DNA from: Capitulum mitella
Taxonomy: Eukaryota; Arthropoda; Thecostraca; Pollicipedomorpha; Pollicipedidae
NCBI GenBank assembly: GCA_030062745.1
Contig: CP099841.1
Coordinates: forward strand, 30,135,398-30,199,397
Direction: 5' to 3'
Length of the DNA stretch: 64,000 nt
Shown piece after piece: positions 10,304-53,087 of the stretch; positions within the stretch are counted from its first letter, which is position 1, and each line of letters starts with the position of its first letter. Under the pieces are notes generated by a model. The model was not told the origin of the DNA and did not search any database. It saw only the letters and a list, made by a program, of their open reading frames with translations. A program made the position numbers and the translations under genes.

Positions 10304-12269
10304 CTAATGTTATGAAGACAGGAAGAGGTGTAATAAGCAACTGATCCAGTTTTTCTGGGGGGTGGGGGCATTGGCCGGATCCTTGTTTGTTCCATTAACA
10401 GCGTCTTTATTCGCATAAAATTGTTTGTTACCTAGCGGTGGGGAGTGTAAATACCAAAAACTGGTGGCCAAAAACATTTGAAAAATAAGCACCCTCTACG
10501 CTTATTGGATACCACTGACGAAATGAAAGCAAAAGCTTCGACCGAGAGGTTTTGGGCTGGGCTTCTTAAACTGGTCATATCATATCATACGGGGTTTGTA
10601 AGGGTAAGAGACATCATAGGCGACTTACGAATCATTCAGGATGTGATGGAATATACAATGAAACATAGCTTTCCAATAATCTTTCGTGTATTAGTCATTT
10701 AATCCGCATTTAACCCTACTCCGGGCCGAGAGAGCGAGCAACTTCTGGTCCTTTCCAGTTTTTCTCTCACCATTCGCGGGCTTTTCGGAACTGCTTCACG
10801 AAACTTAGACGGTTTTTTAATATGTTTTTGACAGGCTGTGACAAAATTTCAAAAGTTCATCTGCTCCGAAGGAGGTTCCAGAACACGTATTTGTGCGGCA
10901 TGTTGGAATAATATCGTACTTTCTTGAGATCGAGCACTTCGACCTGGTCATGTACCATTTTGATGTCCTTTATAAAGCCATGGAGAAACGAAATGATCAA
11001 AATATTTATATCCTGCACACTTTCAAGTATTTTAAGAAAAATGTCGTCATTCGTGGATCCAGGCGCCTGGCAAACAGAATGTCTAAATGTTCTCTAATTC
11101 TAAGAATTTATCACTCATTGTAAGTTCATGTGTGGTATACAGACCTGTATCCTAATTTATATGAACAGTTCACCCATATAGACTGCCAAGAGCATTTTTA
11201 GGCATCGTTTTCCAAATGAATATTTCGTCCAAGATGTTCAATGGCCTTACAGATATGTGGATCTGTGAGACTAGTTTTGTTATCTTGACATAGATTACAA
11301 TCAAATGCCATACGTTTCAGCAAAAAAGAAACCACAGGCGGCTCCGGTTAATGTAAAGGGATATTTATTTTTTCTCATTCCTGAGAAAATATGACTCGAT
11401 CCAAGAGATAAAACACAGCAATCACCATGTAATTATTGACACCTGTTTTCTGGTATCTATGTCTGGTTATCTGGTACCTATGAGCACTTGCAAGGTGTAC
11501 ATAATATGGCATACGACGCATTTGGGAGTGATTTCTTGACATTCATAATCTCACCAAATTCAGAATATATAACGAAAAAATGACATTTTCCAAATATATC
11601 CTTTTATATATCCTGGCTACGCCCATGATTCCATTATTTGAAAATTTGATGCGTTTTTGACCCCAAAATTCAAACATAAGCAACAATACTAAATCATGTG
11701 CAAACCGTGTTTGAATATGGTACCCAGTTACCAATAGTTTATCAAGTAGAAAGTTATTCCACGTTTCCTGATAACTAGATCCGCCAATGGGCACTTATCA
11801 TATGCATATAATATGGTACGCGACCTGCAAATGTTTCCAGAGCACAAACGGGCACGCCAAACCCAAAATACGTTTTAGAATGAATTAACATTTTCTAAAT
11901 ACATGTACCCATGTTGTGTCCTGTATGCGTCTATGAAAATAAGAAAGTGTGCCTTTCCCTAATATAAATGATAGATCTATCAACTGTCGGCAGAATGTCA
12001 TGAAGAAGAACAAAATTAGTGCTAGAATGTGGTCACAAAGCAGCTCGTACAGTCAAATCTCTATTTATGCCGTCATTTTGACTCCCAATCTCCTCTTTCT
12101 AAAACGTATTACATTCCTCTTTAGGAATGCGGATGGCGACAGACTATCAAACGCCGTTTTCCGCTAGGAAATCCGACCAATAGTCGTCGATATCGCAGGG
12201 GGAGGTGGTAGAATCCGCCTGCCCACCCCAACATGGAATCTTATGAGCTGGGCAGGAGCACGGATTAGG
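10304..12269. other. Intergenic, no gene recognised
   Basis: AT-rich sequence with only short open frames and no family resemblance. Some further decayed sequence of the LINE that becomes readable at 12.27 kb may lie at its right edge, but I cannot read it. Confidence 0.5.
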
Positions 12270-19407: not shown

Positions 19408-20621
19408 CCGGAGGGCTAGACGGTATGGCCGATTCCCGGCAGGTGGGGGGGGGGGGATTTGGCACCCCCGAGATCTTGAGAACTACTCGTCCGATTTCAT
19501 CGCAACAAACGACAATCGAGTTTCGACAACACGACAATCGAGTTGCCATGTAGTAAACTAGATTTCTACAAAAAGAAGGCTTCAAAATTTTCAAAAGGAT
19601 GGATAAAGGTGGGCAAAAAAGTCAAAATGGAGGATATTTTTGGCCTTCTTATAATTCACTTATTTATGGACCGCTTTTGATGAAATTGGCATGAATCGAG
19701 AGATTATGGATGGGACTTTTACCATTGGTCCATACATTTGAAATTCATAGGCGTTTACAGGATTTCAAAAATAGGAGGATTGGTTTCCCAACAAATGAAC
19801 GAATGAAAAAGGCAAAATCGCTTTTTTGGCTTCTGTTAGTCATGTTATGTTAAAGAAGTACAAATCGTATTACAATGTTTGTATAATGTTAGCATAGGCG
19901 GTGCCAGAGACATCAAAAAGTCAAGGAACTGTCATGGTCATATGTTCTTCAGATCAACTCTTGACCTATAACCTTAAATGACTTCCAGTGACCCTGGAGT
20001 CACTTGGAATGATCTCATGTGCTTTTAGTATTATCCGTAAACGTTTTTAATCATTTGAATTCCCTCTATTTCAAAAATTCCGTTTCACGACTATTGTGAT
20101 ATACGGTACGCCCACTGACATTTTGGATCATAGCTCCGTGACCCGACCTGATATCAAACTGAAACTCCATTCACAAGTAGAGAGCACCATTCTACGTCAT
20201 ATGTTTTCCGGATTTTGCCTTTCAAAACATAGCGCCGAAATAAATACTATAAAACCAAATTTTGATTTTGACCTTGACCTGACCTTGTAAAGTGGCCTCA
20301 GAGGAACAAAATTGTATTTGTACGTTGCCCAACTATTGAGCTATACATCCATATAAAGTTTTGAGTTTTATCTTAAAAGCGCTGGTTTTGGCAGTCATTT
20401 TTTTACCCTGAACAGGGCCAAAAATGGCCTGAGGTGCCTGCCAAATACGTTGGCTGGCTCCGCCCCTGAACAAAATAGAATTTCACAATTTTGTCACAAT
20501 ACGTAAAGAGAATAGCTAGGAAAAGTTACCAGGTTTAGTGAGGCTGCGTCAAAAAGCCTAGAATTGGCAAACAAAAAACCCAAGGGGGGCGGATTCGGCC
20601 CCTTGCCGGGAATAGGGTTAA
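19408..20621 (+). mobile_element. Copy of 1.2-kb TTAA repeat family (R2)
   Basis: It starts inside the left end at CCGGAGGGCTAGACGG, lacking the usual terminal TTAACCCTATTC. It continues with the G-run block (19440-19455), GAGATCTTGAGAACTACTCG, TTTCATCGCAACAAACG and the family interior. It finishes with a canonical right end, GCCGGGAATAGGGTTAA (TTAA at 20618-20621). Its DR1 nuclear-receptor pair is degraded (TGACCTATAACCTT). It has no coding capacity, so it is non-autonomous. Confidence 0.88.
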
Positions 20622-21702: not shown

Positions 21703-22141
21703 TGAGGCGGCAGTCTGCCCTGCCCGGTAAAAGTTAACAAAAATGTACCATACCATGGCATGTTCTGTTCGAGTTCCCGCTGACACACGTTTGCATTGCA
21801 ATCGTTCAGATCTGTTCTGAATTAATTCTGTGCGTCCGGTTTGGTTTGTTTCGATTCAATACGGTTTTGAAAAGGTTACTGTGCGACAGCTCAGCTGAGT
21901 TCAGCAGCAGGCGTCGGTCTGCTGCTCGCGTGTTTTGCTCGAGAGCAAGGAGCGAACTGCCCCTGATCCCAAACACAGTCGTGACGTCATATACGCGTGC
22001 AAGCAATCGACCAATTAAGAATACAGTCTGGGTCTCTGTCCAGCTTTGTAGCAACCAATCGTACCAAAGAGATCGCCCTGGTCTCTCCTCGATGCACCTC
22101 CATCTGGCGGCCGACCATGCCCTGCGGCGACAACAGCACTG

Positions 22142-22490
22142 GCCGCCCGCTCGGTCGGCCTGACTGCCCGCTCGGTCGGTCTGACCGCTGGCCACCCGCT
22201 CGGCCGGCCTGACTGCCCGCTCGGTCGGTCTGACCGCTGGCCACCTGCTCGGTCGGCCTGACTGCCCGCTCGGCCGGCCTGACCGCTGGCCACCCGCTCG
22301 GCCGGCCTGACTGCCCGCTCGGTCGGTCTGACCGCTGGCCACCCGCTCGGCCGGCCTGACTGCCCGCTCGGCCGGCCTGACCGCTGACCACCCGCTCGGT
22401 CGGCCTGACTGCCCGCTCGGCCGGCCTGACCGCTGACCACCCGCTCGGTCGGCCTGACTGCCCGCTCGGCCGGCCTGACCGCTGGCCACG
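22142..22490 (+). repeat. Minisatellite, 49-bp unit, about 7 copies
   Basis: Anchor word GCCAC occurs at 22191, 22240, 22289 and 22338, giving an exact 49-bp period. Each unit holds two related half-units built on CCGCTCGGYCGGYCTGAC, so the unit is itself an internal duplication (about 21 + 28 bp). The array is GC-rich. On the minus strand all three frames remain open (up to 240 codons, 21806-22528), translating as repeats rich in Arg, Gly, Ser, Pro and Ala. A period of 49 (1 modulo 3) explains this without selection. There is no start context or signal peptide to support a gene. Confidence 0.92.
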
Positions 22491-24932: not shown

Positions 24933-26163
24933 TTAACCCTGTTCCCGGAGGGCTACACGGTATGGCCGATTCCCGACCCGACAGACAGAGGGGGGGGGGG
25001 GGCGGATTCGGCCCCCCTGAAATCTCGAGAACTACACCACCGATTTCATCGCAACAAACGGCAATCGATTCCCCATAACGTAAACTACACTTAAAAAATT
25101 CAAATTTGGAAGGGGTGGACACAGGGGGCAGGAATATCAAAATGAAGGGTAATTTTGGACTTATTATAACTCCGTTGTTAATGGACCGATTTCCATGAAA
25201 ATGGCATGAATCGAGAGACTATGGATAGGACGTTTACCATTGGTGCACACATTTGAAATTTTGAGAAAAGTCATGGGCGTTCACAGGGTTTCGAAAATAG
25301 GAGAATTAGTTTTTTCAAAAACTGGATTAACAAAAAGGTAAAAGCACCTTTTCGGTTTCGTCTAGTCATGATATGCTAAACAAGTCCAAATCGTGTTACA
25401 AAGGTTGTATAATGTTCGCATAGGCGGTGCCAGGGGCATGAAAAAGGGGGAGCTGTCATGGTCACATGCTCTTCAGATCAACGTGTGACCTTTGACCTTA
25501 AATGACCTTCAGTGACCTTGGGGTGATTTTGAATAATCTCGTGTGTATTTGGCATTATCTGTAAACGTTTTCGACCAGTTGAATTCACTTTACTTCACAA
25601 ATCCCATTTTACGACTATTGTGATATAGGGTACGCGCACTGACATTTTAGGTCATAGCTCCGTGACCCTGACCAGATATCAAGCTGCAATTTGGTACACA
25701 AGTAGAGGGCAACCTTCTACGTCATATACATTCCGAGTTTGGCATTTTGAAAAATGATGCCGAAATTACTACTATAAAACCAAATTTTGAGTTTTGACCT
25801 TGACCTGACCTTGTAAAGTGACCTTAGACGAACAAAATTGCATCGGCATGTTGCCCAACTATTTAGCTTTATATCCGTATAAAGCTTTAAGTTCTATCTT
25901 AAAAACGCTATTTTTGGCAGTCATTTTTCTTTTACCCTGAACAGGGCCAAAAATGGCCTGAGACGCCTCCCAACAACGTTGCCTGGCTCCGCTCCTGAGC
26001 AGAACACAGCTTTAAAATTTTGTCACAATGCGTAGAAATATTAGCTAGGAAAAGTCCCACGTTTCGTGAAGCTGCGTCAACAAGCCTGGAATTGGCAAAC
26101 AAAAAACCCGAGGGAGGGGGGGGGGGCGAATTCATCCCCCCTCCCTGCCGGGAATAGGGTTGA
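24933..26163 (+). mobile_element. Full-length copy of 1.2-kb TTAA family (R4)
   Basis: The left end is TTAACCCTGTTCCCGGAGGG and the right end GCCGGGAATAGGGTTGA, so the flanking tetranucleotide is TTAA on the left and TTGA on the right. The G-run blocks near both ends are expanded. The cluster at 25486-25522 keeps the DR1 TGACCTTTGACCT plus two more TGACCT half-sites. A further run of TGACCT words lies at ~25797-25825. It encodes no protein. Confidence 0.92.
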
Positions 26164-28139
26164 ATCATTTTGAACTGGCAGCCATATGATTATGGTTTCC
26201 AGCCAGCCCATTCGAACTATTTTGAACTCGTTCATTAAGTACACTTATAGGGACAGCAATAGCTATTTTTTCCAGGTACTACATTCTATTTAGTGTTCAA
26301 GTCGGCCCTGAATAAATACATCTTGCACTGCTTTGTCGTTGGAATATCTTGATGTAATAAACATTGAACTTTGCATGGAAATAGCTCAGGAATAACGTTT
26401 CATTGTCTGGCACCTCATAACTTGGGACTGCTGTGGGTGTTTTTTAAATAAATAGTAATATTTATTTCAAAAAAAAATATTTTTTTCTTTTAAAAGTAAG
26501 TTTTAACCGAATGGTTTGCATTCGAGGCTTTGGGTCCCGAGCACATGCCAAGCAGAGCTTGTTGCTTGTACCCTGAACCCACCAACACTTTAGTGCCATT
26601 CCACTTCAACGGGTGATATTTGCTCCGTCCTTTTCGCGAGACAGGACTTCGGAGGATCTTTTTCGTGCTGTGCAATGCTGCGACACGGCCGCCCCGTGCG
26701 AGCTAACCCTCTCTGGTCACTTGCCTGATGAAGGCTTGATAATGTTCTCAAGTCTCGCAATTCCCTTTTTCGGGACTCAAACCCGGTGTTGCAGCAAATG
26801 AGTGCATTTCATGACGGCTATGATTTGCTGTCGCCATGGTAATGCTGAGATCGAATGCTTCCATTGGAATACGTCATCATCTTACCACGGCATCATCATC
26901 ATCATCAATCACGCCATCAGCTTACAACGGCTTTAACGTGATGATGGCTCCATTTGCACCATCACACTGCAGACCCGATGGCATCGCCTCCTGAAGAGCC
27001 GGACGGTGCCAACCCGACCGTCCCGGTGGGATCTGCAACGTACCTGGACAATGACACCAGCAGACGGGTTCCGCACGCATGCGGAAGAGGTAGCCTGTCG
27101 CCCTGACGTCACCAAATGTCGCGGAAGGCCTCCTTGCATGGACTCTGGCATTTCCCGCATTCCAACAGCAACGCCTCTTGTTCCGTGGTGCCGTTATGGG
27201 CCTGCGCTGCGCGGCAGCATTCGTGCCAGGCACTGCCTGGACGGGAACGGCGGGGTGAAACCCCCAGTCCGTGTGCTGAAGAAGCTCAGAGAGCTGATGG
27301 CCTAAGAGCGGCCACCTCTTGTTAGGCACCGCACGGGGTGCTGCTGTCTCATAGCGCTGGCCTGTAACGGCCATAACATGGTTATAACGCGACAACGTCG
27401 TCTAGTGAACGTTTTCATGCACATTTCGTCAATATATGTATCATTCGTGTCCGCTTTTTGTCAGTTACGTTGCTGTACGGCGTATGATATGCACATTCAT
27501 AAAGGAGGACGAATACAAAACTAGGATGTGTAACATGGCAATGCTATCCGTGTTAAATGGATTACTATTACTTATCTCCACTTCTAAAGGGCATGAGTAG
27601 GAAGCAAGTGACGTTCGATATCCAGGAAGGCAACACGAAAGTCAGTCTTGGTAAAATGGACGATTGCAAAGGTGGAGTTGATAATGTCGTCAGCATTACA
27701 AAAGAACGCCTTGCAAACATTACTCGCAACATAGATACTTTTATAACACTGCGTCATGCCCACAAATGGCACGCTTGTGGTGTTTTACCATCACATCCTG
27801 TGACTACAACCAGCAGCCTTCTTATCAAGCCTTTCGTGACGTAAGCTAGCAGTGTAAGATTTGGATGTTTTCCGTCATGTGCCATCTCGTCAACGGTTTG
27901 CCATGTTGCTAGAGTGAGTGCGTTAGTGGGCCGCTGTTCTGTGGTTTGCAAAGACCATCGAGGGCCGCCTGATTTCCAGGTGGACGTCATCTGGCCAGTG
28001 CACGTGTCCGATATGACTCCTCTCGACGTCCTGGTACGGGGACTCCTCAAACGTGTAGTCCAGGGGACTCGCTGACCATCTTGATGAACTGAAGAAAAAA
28101 TCCGGAAAGCAGTTGGAGAAATCGCACCCGAAACGATTT
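26164..28139. other. Intergenic, no gene recognised
   Basis: Contains a short (CAT)n run at about 26890-26906. A GC-richer stretch at 26930-27310 is open on both strands (minus 26922-27395, plus 27006-27305) without a recognisable domain. A 95-codon frame at 27557-27844 is also unassigned. Confidence 0.45.
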
Positions 28140-31176: not shown

Positions 31177-31219
31177 ATGCGAGCCGCCGCGTGCATCCTA
31201 GTGCTGTTGGCCTGCGCCG
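31177..31219 (+). CDS. Chitin deacetylase exon 1 (coding part)
   Basis: Encodes 14 residues of the signal peptide, [14 protein letters not shown], and ends in phase 1 at the donor G|GTAAGT. The high GC of the leader fits the CpG-rich promoter. Confidence 0.85.
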
Positions 31220-32283: not shown

Positions 32284-35187
32284 ATACATATTACGACGCC
32301 CATTCAAAATGCTGATGTGGACAGCTATTTGTATTGTCCAGTGCGTCGGCACACCATTAACCGCCCTGTTTCTAGAGAATATCCGGACCGGCCAAAGCCA
32401 CGGGCCAGACAGAACGAACCACTCCGTTCCACTGTCTTCACGGGTATGCACTGTCTGATTTACGCTGTCTCCCCAGCTCACGCGAACCGCGTGAAGCGCC
32501 AGGACACCGAGGAGTCCCAGGAGGACATCATCAAGAGCATCTGCCAGGGCAAGGGCCCCGGAGAATGGTTCCGGCTGGTGGCGGGCCCGCAGGCCTGCAG
32601 GGACGTGGTCCAGTGCACCTCGGCGGTAAGATGGCGTCACGGCGCGCAGATAGCATCGGGGATGCGGTCGGCCCGGCGGCCGGCGCGCCCCGCGCAGCCG
32701 ACCGCGGCCGCGCGCCGGTAAAAGTGGCTCGCCGGCCGGACCCGCCACCGCCGCCGCCGCCGCCGAGGGAAAGGAGGTGGCCCGTCGGCGGCGGCGCCCC
32801 GTCCCCGCGCGCGGCCGCCTGCCCGAGAGAGCGCCACCCCCGGTTCGCGTCGCGACCGGCTCGAAAGCCGCGGAACGGGCTCCGCGAGCACGGCGTCGAG
32901 CGCGCCGTCGGTCGGGCCGGCCAGGGGGCTGTCATCGTTACCGGAACTGGTAACGAGCCGACATTGCGAAAGGAAACCGCACGGAACGAAAGCGATCCAG
33001 AACGCGTGAAAACCAGCTCTGGGAAATCATGCTTACCGAGCACTGACAGCGCAGAGGGATACTGGTTACGTCTGAGTCGAGATTAACGTTACCCATCCCT
33101 CCATGGCGAGGTCTTGCAGGTGAAACTTGTGGTTTATTTGCCAAAAATGGCACCAATGATGCTAAGTGGAAGAAGCCCTCCTATATTTGCTGGCATTTGT
33201 ACGTAAAACGATGGCCGGCTTTCTCATGTCATGGGAGGAAGACATACACGCCGCCGCGGTTTTCTGAGTGAGGCAAAGTGACTCTGAATTGCCGAAGTGT
33301 GGGGTGCGGCAAAATTATGGTTGTTGACCGCAACTAAAACAATGGTATAATCCAGATGTGTGAACAGGCAGTTCCGCGTCAGACATTACTGGATATCGAT
33401 GTCACGACCAATACGAAACACGTAAAGCGTTCTCCATGTCCACGGCAACTATCCATCATGTCCACGATCCACGGGGTGTGAGTTCATGTACTCCCTCGCC
33501 GCAGATGTCGGCATCTGTGACCATGTTGGAGAACAGCGCCATCATGATTTGTTGACCGATCTGTCAGTGCTCGACGTCCGGTGGCAGAAGCTCGGTTGCT
33601 GGCTCGGCTCTGACAGCAGCCGTCGCCTCCTTCAGGGTCTGCAGAAGATCCGGTGCCCGCAAGGCCTGGTGTTCGACCTGGAGAAGCAGACGTGCGACTG
33701 GAGGGCTGAGGTCAAAAACTGCCACCTCGAGGCCCGGCCCAAGCTGGCGAAGCCGCTGCTGGTCACCGAGGAGCCCATCTGCGACAATGACGGCGAGCTG
33801 GCCTGCGCCGACATGACCTGCATCCAGCGCCCGTTGTTCTGCGACGGCACGCCCGACTGCAACGACGGCTCCGACGAGAACTCCTGCGGTGAGTAGGCGA
33901 CTGTGATGTGTGCCGCGACGTTTCTGTGGTCTGTCGGTCAACAGCAGCCTGGGGTCTCTCCTGTGAGACTGCCACCGTTCCGTCCGAGACAGCGGAGACG
34001 GCGACCGTCTGACGACCGGCTGGCGCTCCGTTTCAGACATGGACAGCGACCCCAACCGGGCGCCGCCGTGCGACGTCGAGAAATGCCAGCTGCCGAACTG
34101 CTTCTGCTCCGAGGACGGGACTACCGTGCCGGGCAACCTGGACCCGCAGAACGTGCCGCAGATGGTCATGATCACCTTCAACGGCGCCATCAACAACAAC
34201 AACATCGACCTGTTCGACGAGCTGTTCAGCCCGGAGCGCGTCAATCCCAACGGCTGCCCGATCAAGGGCACCTTCTTCGTGTCGCACAAGTACACCAACT
34301 ACACGGCCGTCCAGGACCTGCACAACCGCGGCCACGAGATCGCCGTCTTCTCCGTCACGCAGAACGACACGGCCAACTTCTGGAGCAACGCCAGCCAAGA
34401 GGAGTGGGCCAAGGAGATGGCCGGCCAGCGCTTCATCATCGAAAAGTTCGCCTCTATCAGGGACAGCTCCGTGGTCGGCATGCGGACGCCCTACCTGCGC
34501 GTGGGCGGCAACAACCAGTTCTTCATGATGGACGAGCAGAAGTTCCTGTACGACTCGACCATCACTGCCCCGCTGAGCGACATCCCCATCTGGCCGTACA
34601 CCCTGCTCAACCAGATGCCGCACACCTGTCACGGCAACGCCCAGAAGTGCCCCACGCGGGCCTTCCCCGTCTGGGAGATGGTGATGAACGAGCTGGACCG
34701 GCGCGAGGACCCCAGCGTGGACGACGACCTGCCCGGCTGCGCCCAGGTCGACTCGTGCTCCAACATCCGCACTGGCGAGCAGTTCTACAACTTCCTCAAC
34801 CACAATTTCGACCGCCACTACCTGACCAACCGCGCGCCGCTCAGTCTCAACTTCCACTCGGCCTGGCTGAAGAAGGACGACTTCCTCGATTACCTGCTGT
34901 ACTGGATTGAGGAGATCCAGGAGACGTTCCCCGACACCTACTTCGTGACCATGACACAGGTCATCGAATGGATGCAAAGTCCTCTCACCACTGCCGACAC
35001 TCAGACGTTCGAGCTTTGGAAGACCAAGTGCGACGAGCCCATCGGCTTCCCCTGCATCAAGCCGGGCGGCAACAACTGTGCCCTGCACGCCGACGAGATC
35101 CAGGGCACGTTCAACATGCAGACCTGCCAGAGATGCCCAGCCAACTTCCCCTGGCTGAGCGATCCGGCTGGCGAGGGCTTCCTGTAA
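31177..35187 (+). CDS. Secreted chitin deacetylase-like protein, group I (serpentine/vermiform type), catalytic motifs altered
   Basis: Four exons joined at 31177-31219, 32477-32625, 33636-33888 and 34037-35187 give 531 residues without interruption; all introns are GT-AG. The start has a GCCGCC context and an in-frame TAG 15 bases upstream. Residues 1-17 are a signal peptide ending AHA. A six-cysteine peritrophin-A chitin-binding domain follows (Cys37, 55, 61, 71, 84, 93), then an LDL-receptor class A domain (Cys113-148, with the acidic DGSDE calcium motif), then a CE4 polysaccharide deacetylase domain (about 185-470) and a Cys-rich tail ending [12 protein letters not shown]. This order and tail are typical of arthropod group I enzymes, which act on cuticular and tracheal chitin outside the cell. 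Motif 1 is TFNG (195-198), not TFDD, and motif 2 is FSVTQ (253-257), not HSxTH. This removes the catalytic base and all three metal ligands. Motif 3 (RTPYL, 298-302), the YDST block and His422 remain. I infer a catalytically inactive chitin-binding paralogue. Confidence 0.93.
32141..32184. repeat. (TA)n microsatellite in intron 1, first
   Basis: About 44 bases of TA repeat. Confidence 0.95.
32233..32280. repeat. (TA)n microsatellite in intron 1, second
   Basis: About 48 bases of TA repeat, 48 bases downstream of the first. The two self-complementary arrays could pair with each other in the transcript. Confidence 0.95.
32477..32625 (+). CDS. Chitin deacetylase exon 2
   Basis: 149 bases, entered in phase 1 and left in phase 0 at GCG|GTAAGA. 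Encodes the end of the signal peptide (AHA), a basic RVKR stretch that might be a proprotein cleavage site, and the first half of the chitin-binding domain with Cys37, Cys55 and Cys61. Confidence 0.9.
32626..33635 (+). other. Intron 2 of the chitin deacetylase gene
   Basis: Donor GTAAGA, acceptor TCGCCTCCTTCAG. The first 300 bases are very GC-rich, with a short GCC/CCG run at about 32742-32765; the remainder is ordinary. Open frames across the GC-rich part (for example plus 32565-33086) are compositional. Some insect group I genes have alternative exons, but none can be recognised here. Confidence 0.85.
33636..33888 (+). CDS. Chitin deacetylase exon 3
   Basis: 253 bases, from phase 0 to phase 1 at G|GTGAGT. 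Completes the chitin-binding domain (Cys71, Cys84, Cys93), then a linker of ~20 residues and the entire LDL-receptor class A domain ending at Cys148. Exon borders thus follow the domain borders. Confidence 0.92.
33889..34036 (+). other. Intron 3 of the chitin deacetylase gene
   Basis: 148 bases, donor GTGAGT, acceptor CTCCGTTTCAG. The shortest intron of the gene, with nothing notable inside. Confidence 0.9.
34037..35187 (+). CDS. Chitin deacetylase exon 4 (deacetylase domain)
   Basis: 1151 bases encoding residues 149-531 and the stop TAA, so the whole CE4 domain lies in one exon. Its altered motif 1 codons are AAC GGC (34180-34185), and the altered motif 2 codons are TTC (34348-34350) and CAG (34360-34362). 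Asn-X-Ser/Thr sequons occur at residues 236, 258 and 266. Long frames on the opposite strand (up to 396 codons) are shadows of its GC-rich third positions. Confidence 0.95.
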
Positions 35188-35600
35188 ATTTGCCGCCTGC
35201 CGCGGCATCGTTACTTTCCACACTTTCGAGGGCAGCCGCCAAATAAGCAGGAACCCTTTGTTTTAGCGAACGCGCTCGCGCTCGTGGCCCCTTCCGTATC
35301 CCTCTGGTGTTCGGGATGTTGTTAGGCTGCGCCAGTAATCGCGCTAAGACGCTAGGCCCCGGGCGCCGGCTCCTCGCGGGCAGAGATGGCAGCCGGTCTC
35401 CTGAACGTCGGACTTTGTTGATGTGTTGTTGCCGAGTACAAAAGTGCAGCGAGGAGGGAGGTCTGTTTGACTCTGTTTGGCAACGCCGTAGCCCGACCCA
35501 GCTGTGATCGCGACCACGTGATTTCTTGTCCGTATCTTGTATACTTGCGGTTGATGTGTTTTGTACATCAAGTAATAAAGGAAAAACTTTACGTATGGTA
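35188..35600 (+). other. Predicted 3' untranslated region
   Basis: Runs from the stop codon to just past the poly(A) signal. The exact cleavage position is inferred. Confidence 0.65.
35574..35579 (+). terminator. Poly(A) signal AATAAA
   Basis: Canonical hexamer 387 bases after the stop codon and the first one on this strand in the 3' region. Cleavage is expected 10-30 bases downstream. Confidence 0.75.
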
Positions 35601-41128: not shown

Positions 41129-42348
41129 TTAACCCTATTCCCGGAGGCCTAGACGGTATGGTCGATTCCCGGCAGGGGGGGGGCGGATTCGGCCCCCCCC
41201 CTGAGATCTCGAGAACTACTTGTCCGATTTCATCGCAACAAACGGAAATCGATTTGCCGTGACGTGAACTACATTTTTGTACAAAGAAATTCTCAAAATT
41301 TTGAAATGTGTGGATACAGGGGGGCAAAAATGTCAAAATGGGGGGGTACTTTTGGACCTCTTATAACTCCGTCGTTTATGGACCGATTTCAATGAAACTG
41401 GCATGAATCGAGAGATTATGGATAGGATTTTTACCATGGGTACACAAATCTGAAATTTTGAGAAAATTCATGGGCGTTCAAAGGGTTTCAAAAATAGGAG
41501 GATTAATTTTCCAACAACTGAATGAACAAAAAAGGCAAAAGCACTTTTTTGGCTTCTGCTAGTCATGTTATACTAAAGAAGTACAAATCGTATTGCAATG
41601 TTGGTATAATGCTAGCATAGGCGGTGCCAGGGACATGAAAAAGGGGGAACTGTCATGGTCACACGTTCTTCAGATCAACTTGTGACCTTTGACCTTAAAT
41701 GACCTCCAGTGACCTTGGGGTCACCTTGAATGATCTCGTTTGCTTTTGATACTATCTGTAAACGTTTTCAATCATTTGAATTCACTCTATTTCAAAAATT
41801 TCATTTTATGGCTATTGCGATATAAGGTACGCGCACTGACATTTTAGGTCATAGCTCCGTGACCCGACCTGATATGAAGCAAAAACGCGGTACACAAGTA
41901 AAGGGTACCTTTCTACGTCACGCATATTCCGGGTTTGGCATTTGAAAAAATGGCGCCGAAATTATAGCGAAAAAAATAATTTTGACTTTTGACCTTCACC
42001 TGACCTTGTAAAGTGACCTCAGATGGACAAAATTTTGTGTGCACATTGCCTAACTATTTGACTATACATCCATATAAAGTTTTAAGTTCTAGCTTTAAAA
42101 CTCTGTTTTTGGCAGACATTTTCCTTTTACCCTGAACATGGCCAAAAATGGCCTGAGGTTCCTCCCAAAAACGTTGCCTGGCTCCGCTCCTGAGCAAAGT
42201 AGAATTTTGAAATTTTGTCACAGCGCGTAGAAAGGATAGCTAGGAAAAGTCACCAAGTTTCGTGAAGCTGCGTCAAAAAGCCTGGAATTGGTAAGCAAAA
42301 AACCCGAGGGGGGGCGGATTCCGCCCCCCCCGCCGGGAATAGGGTTAA
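41129..42348 (+). mobile_element. Full-length copy of 1.2-kb TTAA family (R7)
   Basis: Flanked by TTAA on both sides (41129-41132 and 42345-42348). The left end reads TTAACCCTATTCCCGG; the right end read backwards is identical for 16 bases. Next to each end sits a G-run/C-run palindrome around GCGGATTCGGCC or its variant. The left end contains an extra ~20-base segment (AGGCCTAGACGGTATGGTCG) followed by a second ATTCCCGG. The interior has TGACCTTTGACCT at 41683 with TGACCT at 41699, 41709 and more near 41990-42018. No frame encodes a transposase, so it must be non-autonomous. Confidence 0.95.
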
Positions 42349-42496: not shown

Positions 42497-43712
42497 TTAA
42501 CCCTATTCCCGTAGGGCTAGACAGTATGGTCGATTTCCGGCAGGGGGAGGGGCGGATTCGGCCCCCCCCCCGAGATCTCGAGAACTACTTGTCCGATTTC
42601 ATCGCAACAAACGGAAATCGATTTGCCGTGACGTGAACTACATTTTTGTACAAAGAAATTCTCAAAATTTTGAAATGTGTGGATATAGGGGGACAAGAAT
42701 GTCGAAATGGGGGGTACTTTTGGACTTCTTATAACTTCGTTGTTTTTCGACCGATTTCAATGAAACTGGCATGAATCGAGCGACTATGGATAGGGCTTTT
42801 ACCATGGGTACATAAATCTGAAATTTTGAGAAGATTCATGGGCGTTCACAGGGTTTCAAAAATAGGAGGATTAGTTGTCTAACAACTGAATGAACAAAAG
42901 AGGCAAAAACACTTTTTTTGGCTTCTGCTAGTCATGTTATACTAAAGAAGTACAAATCGCATTACAATGTTTGTATAATGCTAACATAGGCGGTGCCAGG
43001 GACATGAAAAAGGGGGAACTGTCATGGTCACATGTTCTTCAGATCAACTTATGACCTTTGACCTTAAATGACCTCCAGTGACCTTGGGGTCACTTGGAAT
43101 GATCTCATGTGCATTGAATATTATCTGTAAACGTTTTCAATCATTTGAATTCACTCTATTTTAAAAATTTCATTTTATGGCTTTGCGACATAGGTTACGC
43201 GCACTGACATTTTAGGTCATAGCTCCGTGACCCGACCTGATATCAAGATGGAACTTGGTACACAAGTAGAGGGCACCCTTTTACGTCATATGTATTCCGA
43301 GTTTGGCATTTGAAAAATGGCGCCGAGATTATTGCAAAAAAATATTTTTGACTTTTGGCCTTGACCTGACCTTGTACAATGACCTCAGATAACCAAAATG
43401 ACATCTGCTCATTGCCCAACCATTTAGTTATACATACATATAAAGTTTTAAGTTCTATCTTAAAAACTCTGTTTTTGGCAGACATTTTCCTCTTACCCTG
43501 AACATGGCCAAAAATGGCCTGAGATGCTTCCCAAAAACATTACCTGGCTCCGCCCCCGAGCAAAACAGAATTTCAAAATTTTGTCACGGCGCGTAAAAAG
43601 AATAGCTAGGAAAAGTGACCAAGTTTCGTAAAGCTGCGTTAAGAAGCCTGGAATTGGCAAGGAAAAAACCCGAGGGGGGCGGATTCAGCCCCCCTGCCGG
43701 GAATAGTGTTAA
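42497..43712 (+). mobile_element. Full-length copy of 1.2-kb TTAA family (R8)
   Basis: TTAA at 42497-42500 and 43709-43712. Same orientation as R7, and identical to it over a stretch of more than 100 bases near the left end (from GAGATCTCGAGAACTACTTG through the TGTACAAAGAAATTC region). The right terminus carries one change (GAATAGTGTTAA). The DR1 cluster is at 43062-43092 and another TGACCT run at about 43360-43385. Confidence 0.95.
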
Positions 43713-50053: not shown

Positions 50054-51271
50054 TTAACCCTATTCCCGGAGGGCTAGACGGTATGGCCGATTCCCGGCAG
50101 GGGGGGGGGCGTATTCGGCCCCCTGAGATCTCGAGAACTACTTGTCCGATTTCATCGCAACAAACGGCAATCGATTTGCCGTGACGGGAACTACATTTTT
50201 ATACAAAGACATTTTCAAAATTTTGAAATTTGTGGATACAGGGGGGCAAAAATGTCAAAATAGGGGGTACTTTTGGACTTCGTATAACTCCGTTGTTTAT
50301 CGACCGATTTTGATGAAACTGGCATGAATCGAGAGATTATGGATAGGGCTTTTACCATGGGTACACAAATCTGAAATTTTGAGAAAATTCATGGGCGTCC
50401 ACAGGGTTTCAAAAATAGGAGGATTAGTTTTCTAACAACTGGATGAACAAAAGAGGCAAACACCTTTTTTGGCTTCTGCTAGTCATGTTATACTAAAGAA
50501 GTACAAATCGCATTACAATGTTTGTGTAATGTTAGCATAGGCGGTGCCAGGGACATGAAAAAGGGGGAACTGTCATGGTCACACGTTTCTCAGATCAACT
50601 TGTGACCTTTGACCTTAAGTGACCTCCAGTGACCTTGGGGTCACTTGGAACGATCTCCTATGCATTTAATATTATCTTTAAACGTTTTCAATCATTTGAA
50701 TTCACTCTATTTCAAAAATTTCATGTTATGGCTATTGCGATATAGGGTAAACGTACTGACATTTTAGGTCATAGCTCCGTGACCCGATCTGATATCAAGC
50801 TGAAACTTGGTACACAAGTAGAAGGCACCCTTCTACGTCATATATATTCCGGGTTTGGCATTTGAAAAAACGGCGCCGAAATTATTATGAAAAAACAAAT
50901 TTTGACTTTTGACCTTGAGCTGACTTTGTAAAATGACCTCAGGTAAACAAAATTACATCTGCATATGGCCCAACTATTTAGCTATACATCCATATAAAGT
51001 TTTAAGTTCTAGCTTTAAAACTCTATTTTTGGCAGACATTTACCTTTTACCCTGAACATGGCCAAAAATGGCATGCGGTGCCTCCCAAAAACGTTGCCTG
51101 GCTCCGCCCCTGAGTAAAGTAGAATTTTGAAATTTTGTCACGGCACGTAGAAAGAATAGCTAGGAAAAGTCACCAAGTTTCGTGAAGCTGCGTTAAAAAG
51201 CCTGGAATTGGCAAGCAAAAAACCAGAGGGGGGGCCGATTCCGCCCCCCCCCCTGCCGGGAATAGGGTTAA
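50054..51271 (+). mobile_element. Full-length copy of 1.2-kb TTAA family (R9)
   Basis: TTAA on both sides (50054-50057 and 51268-51271). The left end is TTAACCCTATTCCCGGAGGG and the right end TGCCGGGAATAGGGTTAA. G-run blocks near both ends. The half-site cluster TGACCTTTGACCTTAAGTGA with further TGACCT words lies at 50603-50636. Non-autonomous. It faces R10 across a 604-bp spacer. Confidence 0.95.
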
Positions 51272-51875
51272 GGATGAGAGCGGAACCGAGTACCCGGAAC
51301 TCATTGAACGACTCATTAAAGCACACCAGGGTGATGCCTTCAAGGTGGGGTGCAGAAGTTCTGCCCCAGACTGTGGGCAAATGATAAAAGGTCGTGCTGT
51401 GCAGTGGAGGTATACAAAGCGATGGGACGCAACAAACCAGCGAGAACAAAACAGACGATTTCAGATTAATCCTGGCAATCAAACACACAAGAAGAAGTAA
51501 AGATGGGTCATAGTTTAAAAAGGCGTCGATTGGTGAAAAAACTTAAGCAATTTTATGTCAATAGCGGCAAAGCAGGCCGGATTTCAAGAACGTTTTGTGA
51601 ACCACAGCGGAAGAAAAAGAGCAGTAAAACGGCAGATAGTTGGCAGACATAACCCCAGCATATTGTTCAGTTAACTGGCCGCAAAAATCAGTTCTTCAAG
51701 AAACAGGTATCTTGCTGTCATGCAATGATGTAGACACTCATATACCGAAGGAAAATGCCAGGGCAGTGCTGCAGCCAAATGAAATCCAAAAACACCGGCT
51801 CAGAGAGCCATCCACGTCAGGAGAGACGTGGAGGAACCTTCCATCGTGAGTGCTGGCGCTGTAATTAATCCATGG
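51272..51875. other. Spacer between inverted element copies R9 and R10
   Basis: 604 bases that do not belong to the repeat family. A 69-codon plus frame (51640-51849) and a minus frame at the left edge have no recognisable domain. It would be the loop if R9 and R10 paired. Confidence 0.5.
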
Positions 51876-53087
51876 TTGAATCCCATTCCCGGTAGGGGGT
51901 TGAATCCGCCCCCCGTCGGATTTTTTGCTTGCAATTTCAGGCTTTTTGACGCAGCTTCACGAAACTTGGTGACATTTGCTAGCCATTCTTTCTACGTATT
52001 GTGCCAAAATTTCGAAGTTTTTTTTTATTAGTGACGGAGCCAGGCAACATTTTTGAGAGGCACCTCAGGCCATTTTTGGCCATGTTGAGGGTAAAAAGAA
52101 AATGACTGCCAAAACTAGCGTTTTTAAGATAGAACTTAAACCTTTATATGGATGTATAGCTTAATAGTTGGGCAACGTACAAAAACAATTTTATTTATCT
52201 GAGGTCACTTTACAAGGTCAGGTCAAGGTCAGAAGTTAACATTTGATTTTATAGTAATAATTTCGGCGCTATTTTTTGAAAAGCCAAACCCAGAAAACAT
52301 GTCACGTAGAATGGTGTTATCTATATGTGTATCAAGTTTCAACTAGATATGTGGTCGGGTTACGGAACTATGGCCTAAAATGTTACTTCGCCATAATATC
52401 ACAATAGTCGTAAAATGGAATTTTTGAAATAGAGTGAATTTAGGTGGTTAAAAAAATGTTAAACGATAATACTGAATGCACACGAGAACATTCCAAGTGA
52501 CTCCAAGGTAGCTGGAGGTCATTTAAGGTCAAAGGTCATAAGCTGATCTGAAGAACATGTGACCATGACAGTTCCCCTTTTTCATGTCCCTGGCACCGCC
52601 TATGTTAGCATTATACAAACGTTGTAATGCGATTTGTACTTCTTTAGCATAACATGACTAGCAGAAGCCAAAAAAGTGCTTTTGCCTCTTTTGTTCATTC
52701 AGTTGTTAGAAAACTAATCCTCCTATTTTTGAAACCTTGTGAACACCCATGAATTTTCTCAAAATTTTAGATTTAAGTACCCATGATAAAAGCCCTATCC
52801 ATAATCTCTCGATTCATGTCAGTTTCACTGAAATCGTTCGATAAAGAACGAAGTTATAAGAAGTCCAAAAGTACCCCCCATTTCGACATTCTTGTCACCC
52901 TGTATCCACACATTTCAAAATTTTGAACATTTCTTTGTATAAAAATGTAGTTCACGTCACGGCAAATCGATTGCCGTTTGTTGCGATGAAATCGGACGAG
53001 TAGTTCTCGAGATCTCGGGAGGGGGCCGAATCCGCCCCCCTTGCCGGGAATCGGCCATACCCTCTAGCCCTCCGGGAATGGGGTTGA
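51876..53087 (-). mobile_element. Full-length copy of 1.2-kb TTAA family (R10)
   Basis: Reverse orientation. Both outer boundaries read TTGA rather than TTAA (51876-51879 and 53084-53087), and the left terminus has small indels (TTGAATCCCATTCCCGG). The half-site cluster appears as GGAGGTCATTTAAGGTCAAA followed by GGTCA at 52514-52538. Interior order is otherwise that of R7-R9. Confidence 0.93.

Follow-up and report, generated by a model that had tools for sequence, protein, structure and literature searches.

The window analyzed here, a 64,000-nucleotide stretch of the Capitulum mitella genome (contig CP099841.1, designated C3), carries a four-exon gene, A, whose product is related to insect chitin deacetylase (CDA) 1. 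We propose, with a probability of about 0.72, that A encodes an old CDA1 pseudoenzyme kept by selection, which would have lost zinc-dependent deacetylation while retaining the fold, the secretion signal, the chitin-binding CBM14 domain and the LDLa domain, and would act as a non-catalytic scaffold of the chitin matrix. A chitin-organizing protein rather than an enzyme is probable because the catalytic residues are lost, yet A and its duplicate are under selection.

Motif positions were taken from the codons of A and from its alignment with Bombyx mori CDA1 (BmCDA1), and residue roles from the description of the silkworm enzyme, in which D205 acts as base and zinc is bound by D206, H261 and H265 (PMC6463723). 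The alignment shows that the catalytic base and the Asp-His-His metal triad are all four replaced in A (N197, G198, F253 and Q257). This agrees with a preliminary description of the gene made from the window's letters, which had placed TFNG at residues 195-198 and FSVTQ at 253-257 and had read them as loss of the base and of three metal ligands. Judged from the codons, at least five base substitutions are needed to pass from GAC/CAC codons to the residues of A, two of them for the His to Phe change. The same description had listed RTPYL, WPYT and the motif 5 His as kept. The first and the last are indeed present, but motif 4 is given as AMVDS, not WPYT, in the BmCDA1 paper and reads AQVDS here, and motif 5 is NFH instead of YFH.

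In order to compare the active site with the rest of the domain, we used the 85 columns that do not vary among five motif-intact proteins, namely BmCDA1, BmCDA8 and three proteins of this genome. A differs at 10 of them, including 4/4 catalytic and metal columns (hypergeometric P about 1e-4, a descriptive value only, the five proteins having been chosen for their intact motifs). No second motif exon was obtained by tblastn over the whole window. Loss of catalysis with the fold retained, as first suggested for this gene, appears well supported by the replaced residues, by the lack of a second motif exon in the window and by the codon ratio of the domain (dN/dS 0.070, see below); the CE4 fold itself would follow from the 65% identity to BmCDA1.

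Three protein queries (the window domain, BmCDA8 and the CDA2-like protein E2) converged on nine CDA loci in the assembly (477 Mb, 16 contigs; Table 1). The search scored best candidates only, so that distant genes, for example of group IV, could escape it; beyond the nine loci it gave weak single matches on C7 (E 1.0), at C2:34.37M (E 0.36) and on C13 (E 0.47). The CDA1-like loci form two tandem pairs, A-B on C3 and A2-B2 on C2, and in 4/4 of them the base and the three ligands are all missing, the active site of B and B2 being more degraded than that of A and A2. Sequencing error or a single decayed copy was rejected as an explanation, the losses being common to four loci. In total, metal ligands are lost at 6/9 loci and intact at 3/9 (two of them CDA2-like). 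The loci with TFDD and HSxxH are candidates for the active paralogue that had been proposed as a search target. At BmCDA1 position 234, in the strand ahead of FFV/FYV, Gly is found in 6/6 altered proteins and Ala in 5/5 intact ones, and this Gly may accompany the loss of the metal for structural reasons. A search of IMG/VR with six peptide patterns gave no match.

Motif 2 is interrupted by an intron in C, D and E, and its last residue varies with the acceptor chosen. A good acceptor gives HSITH in C. For E and E2, HSVSH and HSISH came from the BmCDA1 query. Queries A and C settled on different acceptors that leave out the His, and the His-containing model was used. Motif 2 of D can be read as YSITA, as YSITH (via an extra small exon, twice) or as YSITS (plain acceptor, used here), and that of D2 as NSITQ or NSITS, so that among these two the second His is surely absent in D2 only. 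The loss of D206 and H261 in both is independent of the splice model. D2 ends early and shows 20 changed columns among the 85, including 5 gaps; the model of E contains a doubtful insert (IGETLP). D and D2 resemble insect group III CDA4, which we take to depart from motifs 1 and 2 as well. By contrast, the five motifs are described as present in every silkworm CDA and in each of the four CDAs of Sogatella (PMC6480692, PMC8325873). Altered CDAs may therefore be new to arthropods or already known from them.

Selection was evaluated with a codon model applied to the deacetylase domain, and also to the N-terminal part for the A/A2 pair. The ratio of nonsynonymous to synonymous substitution rates (dN/dS) of A and A2 is 0.070 in the deacetylase domain (dN 0.071, dS 1.02; twice the log-likelihood difference against a ratio of 1, 2dlnL, 128.1) and 0.128 in the N-terminal, chitin-binding part (2dlnL 54.1). 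The other pairs gave 0.048 (B/B2), 0.027 (D/D2) and 0.028 (intact E/E2). Constraint is thus a little weaker in the altered A and B pairs than in the intact pair, but these pairs are far from neutral. Neutral decay, whose exclusion had been asked of a dN/dS test, is ruled out by the codon model, and the counting method of Nei and Gojobori (NG86) also gives ratios below 1.

When A and A2 were compared by blastn, exons 2-4 aligned and introns did not, and the A-B order is conserved on C3 and C2. A genome duplication more than 247 million years ago is reported for barnacles, the Ks of paralogues peaking at 0.8 and 1 in two species (PMC11331182); the dS values of A/A2 and B/B2 (0.86 for the latter) lie near the published peak. 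Catalysis in the A lineage was therefore probably lost before the barnacle genome duplication, because the replacements are common to A and A2 and their dS is near the peak.

The descent of A was examined in a tree of 11 deacetylase domains, which includes E and D2 despite their imperfect models. A and A2 form a clade with BmCDA1 (support 94.7/91; 97.1/95 with the four catalytic columns removed), and B and B2 come next. A is 65% identical to BmCDA1, 52% to B and B2, and 34-44% to C, D, D2, E, E2 and BmCDA8; it keeps 62/124 CDA1-specific columns, as against 42/124 for B and 17/124 for D. On these alignments A is, by descent, a CDA1 orthologue (serpentine-type, group I). The tree that had been suggested earlier thus places A with BmCDA1, and the same genome holds its duplicate A2, with TFNG/FSITQ. 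A grouping of A with B was not rejected by the approximately unbiased (AU) test on all columns (0.093) but was rejected once the catalytic columns were removed (0.006), which favors two independent losses. A grouping of B with BmCDA1 was not rejected (0.056, and 0.066 without these columns). A and B both have Gly at positions 206 and 234 and Phe at 216 and 261. Taken together, A and B may have lost catalysis separately, two independent losses being the better reading than one common loss; with 11 sequences, however, this reading may be affected by long-branch effects or by conversion between the tandem genes.

The following sequence of events could account for these data. A would have lost catalysis before the genome duplication, and the N, G, F and Q replacements would then have been retained in both duplicates. 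The secreted protein would bind chitin through CBM14, as suggested by the biology of insect CDA1, and could dock on a CPAP3/Obstructor-A scaffold as BmCDA1 and Serp do. CPAP3-A1 is reported to pull down BmCDA1 and to raise its activity, and molting fluid to raise the activity of BmCDA1 above that of the enzyme alone and of the D205S mutant (PMC6463723), and Drosophila Obstructor-A is described in a complex with Serp, Verm and Knk, in which it localizes Serp and Verm (PMC4738247). Once docked, A would be a non-catalytic organizer that orders chitin; alternatively, as a placeholder, it might limit or position the CDA2-like enzymes, which are intact, and set where CDA2 acts.

Several points weigh against this proposal. 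The scaffold function would be carried over from insects by analogy. BmCDA1 alone is reported to have no detectable activity (PMC6463723). Relatives with altered motifs are also described: MurNAc deacetylases without the metal Asp, where loss of a single ligand is tolerated (PMC5855634), and Caenorhabditis PDAs with NSISH as motif 2, worm extracts deacetylating chitin in bands that are not assigned to PDAs (PMC3396651). The CDA1 clade leans on one CDA1 from outside this genome. NG86 gives higher A/A2 ratios (0.33 for the domain, 0.51 for the N-terminal part and 0.40 overall) and 0.15 for E/E2; it underestimates dS because the GC content at third codon positions is 0.93 in A. Lastly, the ages of the pairs are not uniform, dS reaching 2.9 for E/E2 and 3.9 for D/D2, far above A/A2; codon bias or saturation may be responsible for this spread. 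The CDA2-like pair is also on C2 and C3 yet shows a dS of 2.9, and besides B no conserved neighbour was recognized in the stretches compared (99 kb on C3, 40 kb on C2).

Four other explanations were considered. The pocket, remodelled to N, G, F and Q but still with Arg, Asp and the motif 5 His, might bind or convert a ligand through another catalytic or binding chemistry that does not need the classical zinc triad. The stronger constraint on the deacetylase domain than on the chitin-binding part (0.070 against 0.128), the identity of the replacements in A and A2 and the conservation of the motif 3 Arg and motif 5 His all fit this idea. We nevertheless regard it as unlikely: the motif 1 Asp and motif 2 His residues of A are all gone, Phe and Gly side chains are unable to hold a metal, and B and B2 have also lost the motif 5 His. 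It also seems quite improbable that A is a residual or conditional deacetylase whose catalysis is restored by an unusual metal site or an accessory protein. The requirement of BmCDA1 for CPAP3-A1 or molting fluid (PMC6463723) and the tolerance of single-ligand loss in relatives (PMC5855634, PMC3396651) speak for such an enzyme, but neither the base nor any of the three ligands is left in A. The nearest case on record is ECU11_0510, without base and both ligand His, which is metal-free in its structure and reported inactive (PMC5855634, PMC10967932).

An alternative exon or RNA editing could restore the active site in some transcripts, and the CDA2-like loci of this genome each show two seemingly alternative motif-1 exons, as alternative exons are reported for insect CDA2 (PMC9632012). 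We give this very little weight: no such exon was obtained by tblastn in the window, the first CDA exons to follow downstream on C3 are those of B, which is itself altered, and, from the codons, A-to-I editing could convert Asn197 to Asp but could not revert Gly198, Phe253 or Gln257. Early pseudogene decay, to which the changes at 10 of the 85 conserved positions could point, is hardly credible given that frame and splice sites are intact in A and A2 alike, and given the codon test (dN/dS 0.070, 2dlnL 128) and a pattern common to four loci.

If A is a CDA1 pseudoenzyme, a wider scenario may be offered tentatively, with the balance somewhat against it. Barnacles might have abandoned CDA1-type deacetylation, all CDA1-like genes having become structural pseudoenzymes before the duplication, the dead copies then being doubled and kept, deacetylation being left to CDA2-like enzymes, and the dead CDA1 being recruited to the shell, cuticle or adhesive matrix. 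Three CDAs are reported in the plates of A. amphitrite (KAF0300422.1, KAF0300493.1 and KAF0311795.1; PMC11293433) and three in the adhesive of P. pollicipes (PMC8371367). Insects are described as needing group I CDAs for ordered chitin fibres and for viability (PMC9632012). "Chitin deacetylases" annotated in barnacle shell and adhesive proteomes may not be enzymes. Whether deacetylation or a structural role is the main need for insect group I CDAs is, to our knowledge, unsettled, and a lineage without CDA1 catalysis yet conserving the protein would be a natural separation-of-function experiment.

The closest known system is BmCDA1 (PDB 5ZNS/5ZNT; group I, Drosophila Serpentine type), which has the same CBM14-LDLa-CE4 order and whose motif 3 RxPYL, motif 4 VDS and motif 5 His are kept in A. 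The two differ in the four catalytic and metal residues, in the motif 5 Tyr, which is Asn in A, and in a partly divergent C-terminal tail. CE4 pseudoenzymes are already known, and A is likewise, by homology, a CE4 protein without base and metal ligands. ECU11_0510 of Encephalitozoon (PDB 2VYO) also lacks the base Asp and metal His, but it is microsporidian and has lost the motif 3 Arg that A keeps. The bacterial NodB-fold pseudoenzyme BA0150 (PDB 4M1B) is described as keeping the fold with no metal coordination (PMC5855634, PMC10967932); it belongs to the peptidoglycan-deacetylase lineage and not to chitin CDA1. For insect group V CDAs with motif 4/5 substitutions inactivity is hypothesized (PMC11719712), although the group V BmCDA8 was found active (PMC6463723); unlike A, they keep motifs 1-3 and have no CBM14 or LDLa. 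Imaginal disc growth factors, inactive GH18 chitinase-like proteins with a suggested non-enzymatic role in cuticle-matrix maintenance (PMC4738247), are a functional parallel only, their family being unrelated to CDA. Crustacean CDA motifs are given as TFDD and HSWSHP (PMC8002005). No report of an inactive group I CDA was found among the matches listed in open-access literature, subscription surveys of insect CDAs being outside this scope. What this analysis adds is the altered duplicate, the altered tandem neighbours, the codon test and a relative date.

The gene model of A has GT-AG introns throughout and an open frame of 531 codons, and its domain order (signal peptide, one CBM14, one LDLa, one CE4) is the group I CDA layout. 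The 531 codons, clean splice sites and intact chitin-binding and LDLa domains reported at the outset were all recovered (CBM_14 E 2.8e-10, Ldl_recept_a E 1.9e-8). Alternative acceptors of exon 3 also preserve the frame (546, 528 or 527 residues); the 531-residue model was chosen because A2 shows identical exon lengths in a spliced alignment with the window protein as query (same four exon lengths, 531 aligned residues). The CE4 domain was assigned through the 5ZNS alignment, its score against PF01522 (window 34039-35187) being 20.3 bits for a cut-off of 23.1; the family was not reported for the C2 copy (L006) either. As the cut-off is missed, family scans would overlook A-type proteins, and a PF01522 search of the genome by itself gave four matches only, all CDA2-like, and missed the window gene.

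Table 1. Features of gene A (window coordinates; residue numbers in brackets) and CDA loci of the genome (contig and position)
Feature	Position	Strand	Description
Exon 1	31177..31219	+	start codon and signal peptide (judged by eye); GT donor after it, frame closes with exon 2; same length in A2
Exon 2	32477..32625	+	end of signal region and first half of CBM14; AG acceptor, GT donor; CBM_14 match
Exon 3	33636..33888	+	second half of CBM14 and LDLa domain
Exon 4	34037..35187	+	complete CE4 deacetylase-like domain, C-terminal tail, stop codon; aligned to 5ZNS chain residues 1-378, E 1.3e-176
CBM14 (Peritrophin-A)	32542..33722	+	residues 37-93, split by intron 2; PF01607, E 2.8e-10, profile 1-53 of 53
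LDLa	33789..33887	+	residues 116-148, intact; PF00057 (Ldl_recept_a), E 1.9e-8
Motif 1, TFNG (195-198)	34174..34185	+	base D205 to N197 (AAC); zinc ligand D206 to G198 (GGC)
Motif 2, FSVTQ (253-257)	34348..34362	+	zinc ligands H261 to F253 (TTC) and H265 to Q257 (CAG)
Motif 3, RTPYL (298-302)	34483..34497	+	Arg306 equivalent (Arg298) kept
Motif 4 equivalent, AQVDS (384-388)	34741..34755	+	AMVDS in BmCDA1; VDS kept
Motif 5 equivalent, NFH (420-422)	34849..34857	+	His422 kept; preceding Tyr to Asn
AATAAA, possible polyadenylation signal	35574..35579	+	string match only
A	window, C3:30.17M	+	TFNG, FSVTQ; CDA1-like
A2 (L006)	C2:34.83M		87% identical to A; TFNG, FSITQ; same replacements N, G, F, Q
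B (L007)	C3:30.21M (30208028)		TFTG, FSITN; motif 5 His and motif 4 Asp lost; next CDA gene downstream of A, about 39 kb
B2 (L008)	C2:34.85M (34853071)		TFHG, FSITN; motif 5 His and motif 4 Asp lost; next CDA gene downstream of A2, about 28 kb
D (L043)	C4:12.488M	-	ALDG; first motif 2 His to Tyr; base kept, at least two ligands gone
D2 (L044)	C5:27.006M	-	AMDG; first motif 2 His to Asn; base kept, at least two ligands gone
C	C2:26.25M		intact TFDD and HSITH
E	C2:2.43M		intact TFDD and HSVSH; CDA2-like; two motif-1 exons
E2	C3:10.38M		intact TFDD and HSISH; CDA2-like; two motif-1 exons

No other gene was recognized in the 64 kb from the list of open frames of at least 90 codons, read without a family-library search, and no RNA family reached the gathering threshold in an Rfam search of the window. 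A 0.3 kb match connects positions 10756-11060 of the window with the stretch of C2 that holds A2. Inverted matches of 70-85% connect C3 at about 30211.2-30213.3 kb, downstream of B, with C2 at about 34860.2-34861.6 kb, downstream of B2, and could be a conserved element, a gene piece or a repeat. A barnacle cement protein query gave two matches 5 kb apart at C9:11.822-11.828M (L058 and L059; E 6.9e-9 and 5.4e-7); a third match, on C7, had E 1.8e-6. Like the duplicated pairs, these matches speak for a barnacle genome. A dispersed repeat of about 1.2 kb, probably a mobile element, lies in the window at about 19417-20621, 24997-26169, 41150-42348, 42518-43712, 50075-51275 and 51879-53066, with one copy on C2 downstream of B2. 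At positions 22139-22489 of the window a GC-rich unit of 49 bases is repeated in tandem about seven times, with 95% matches.

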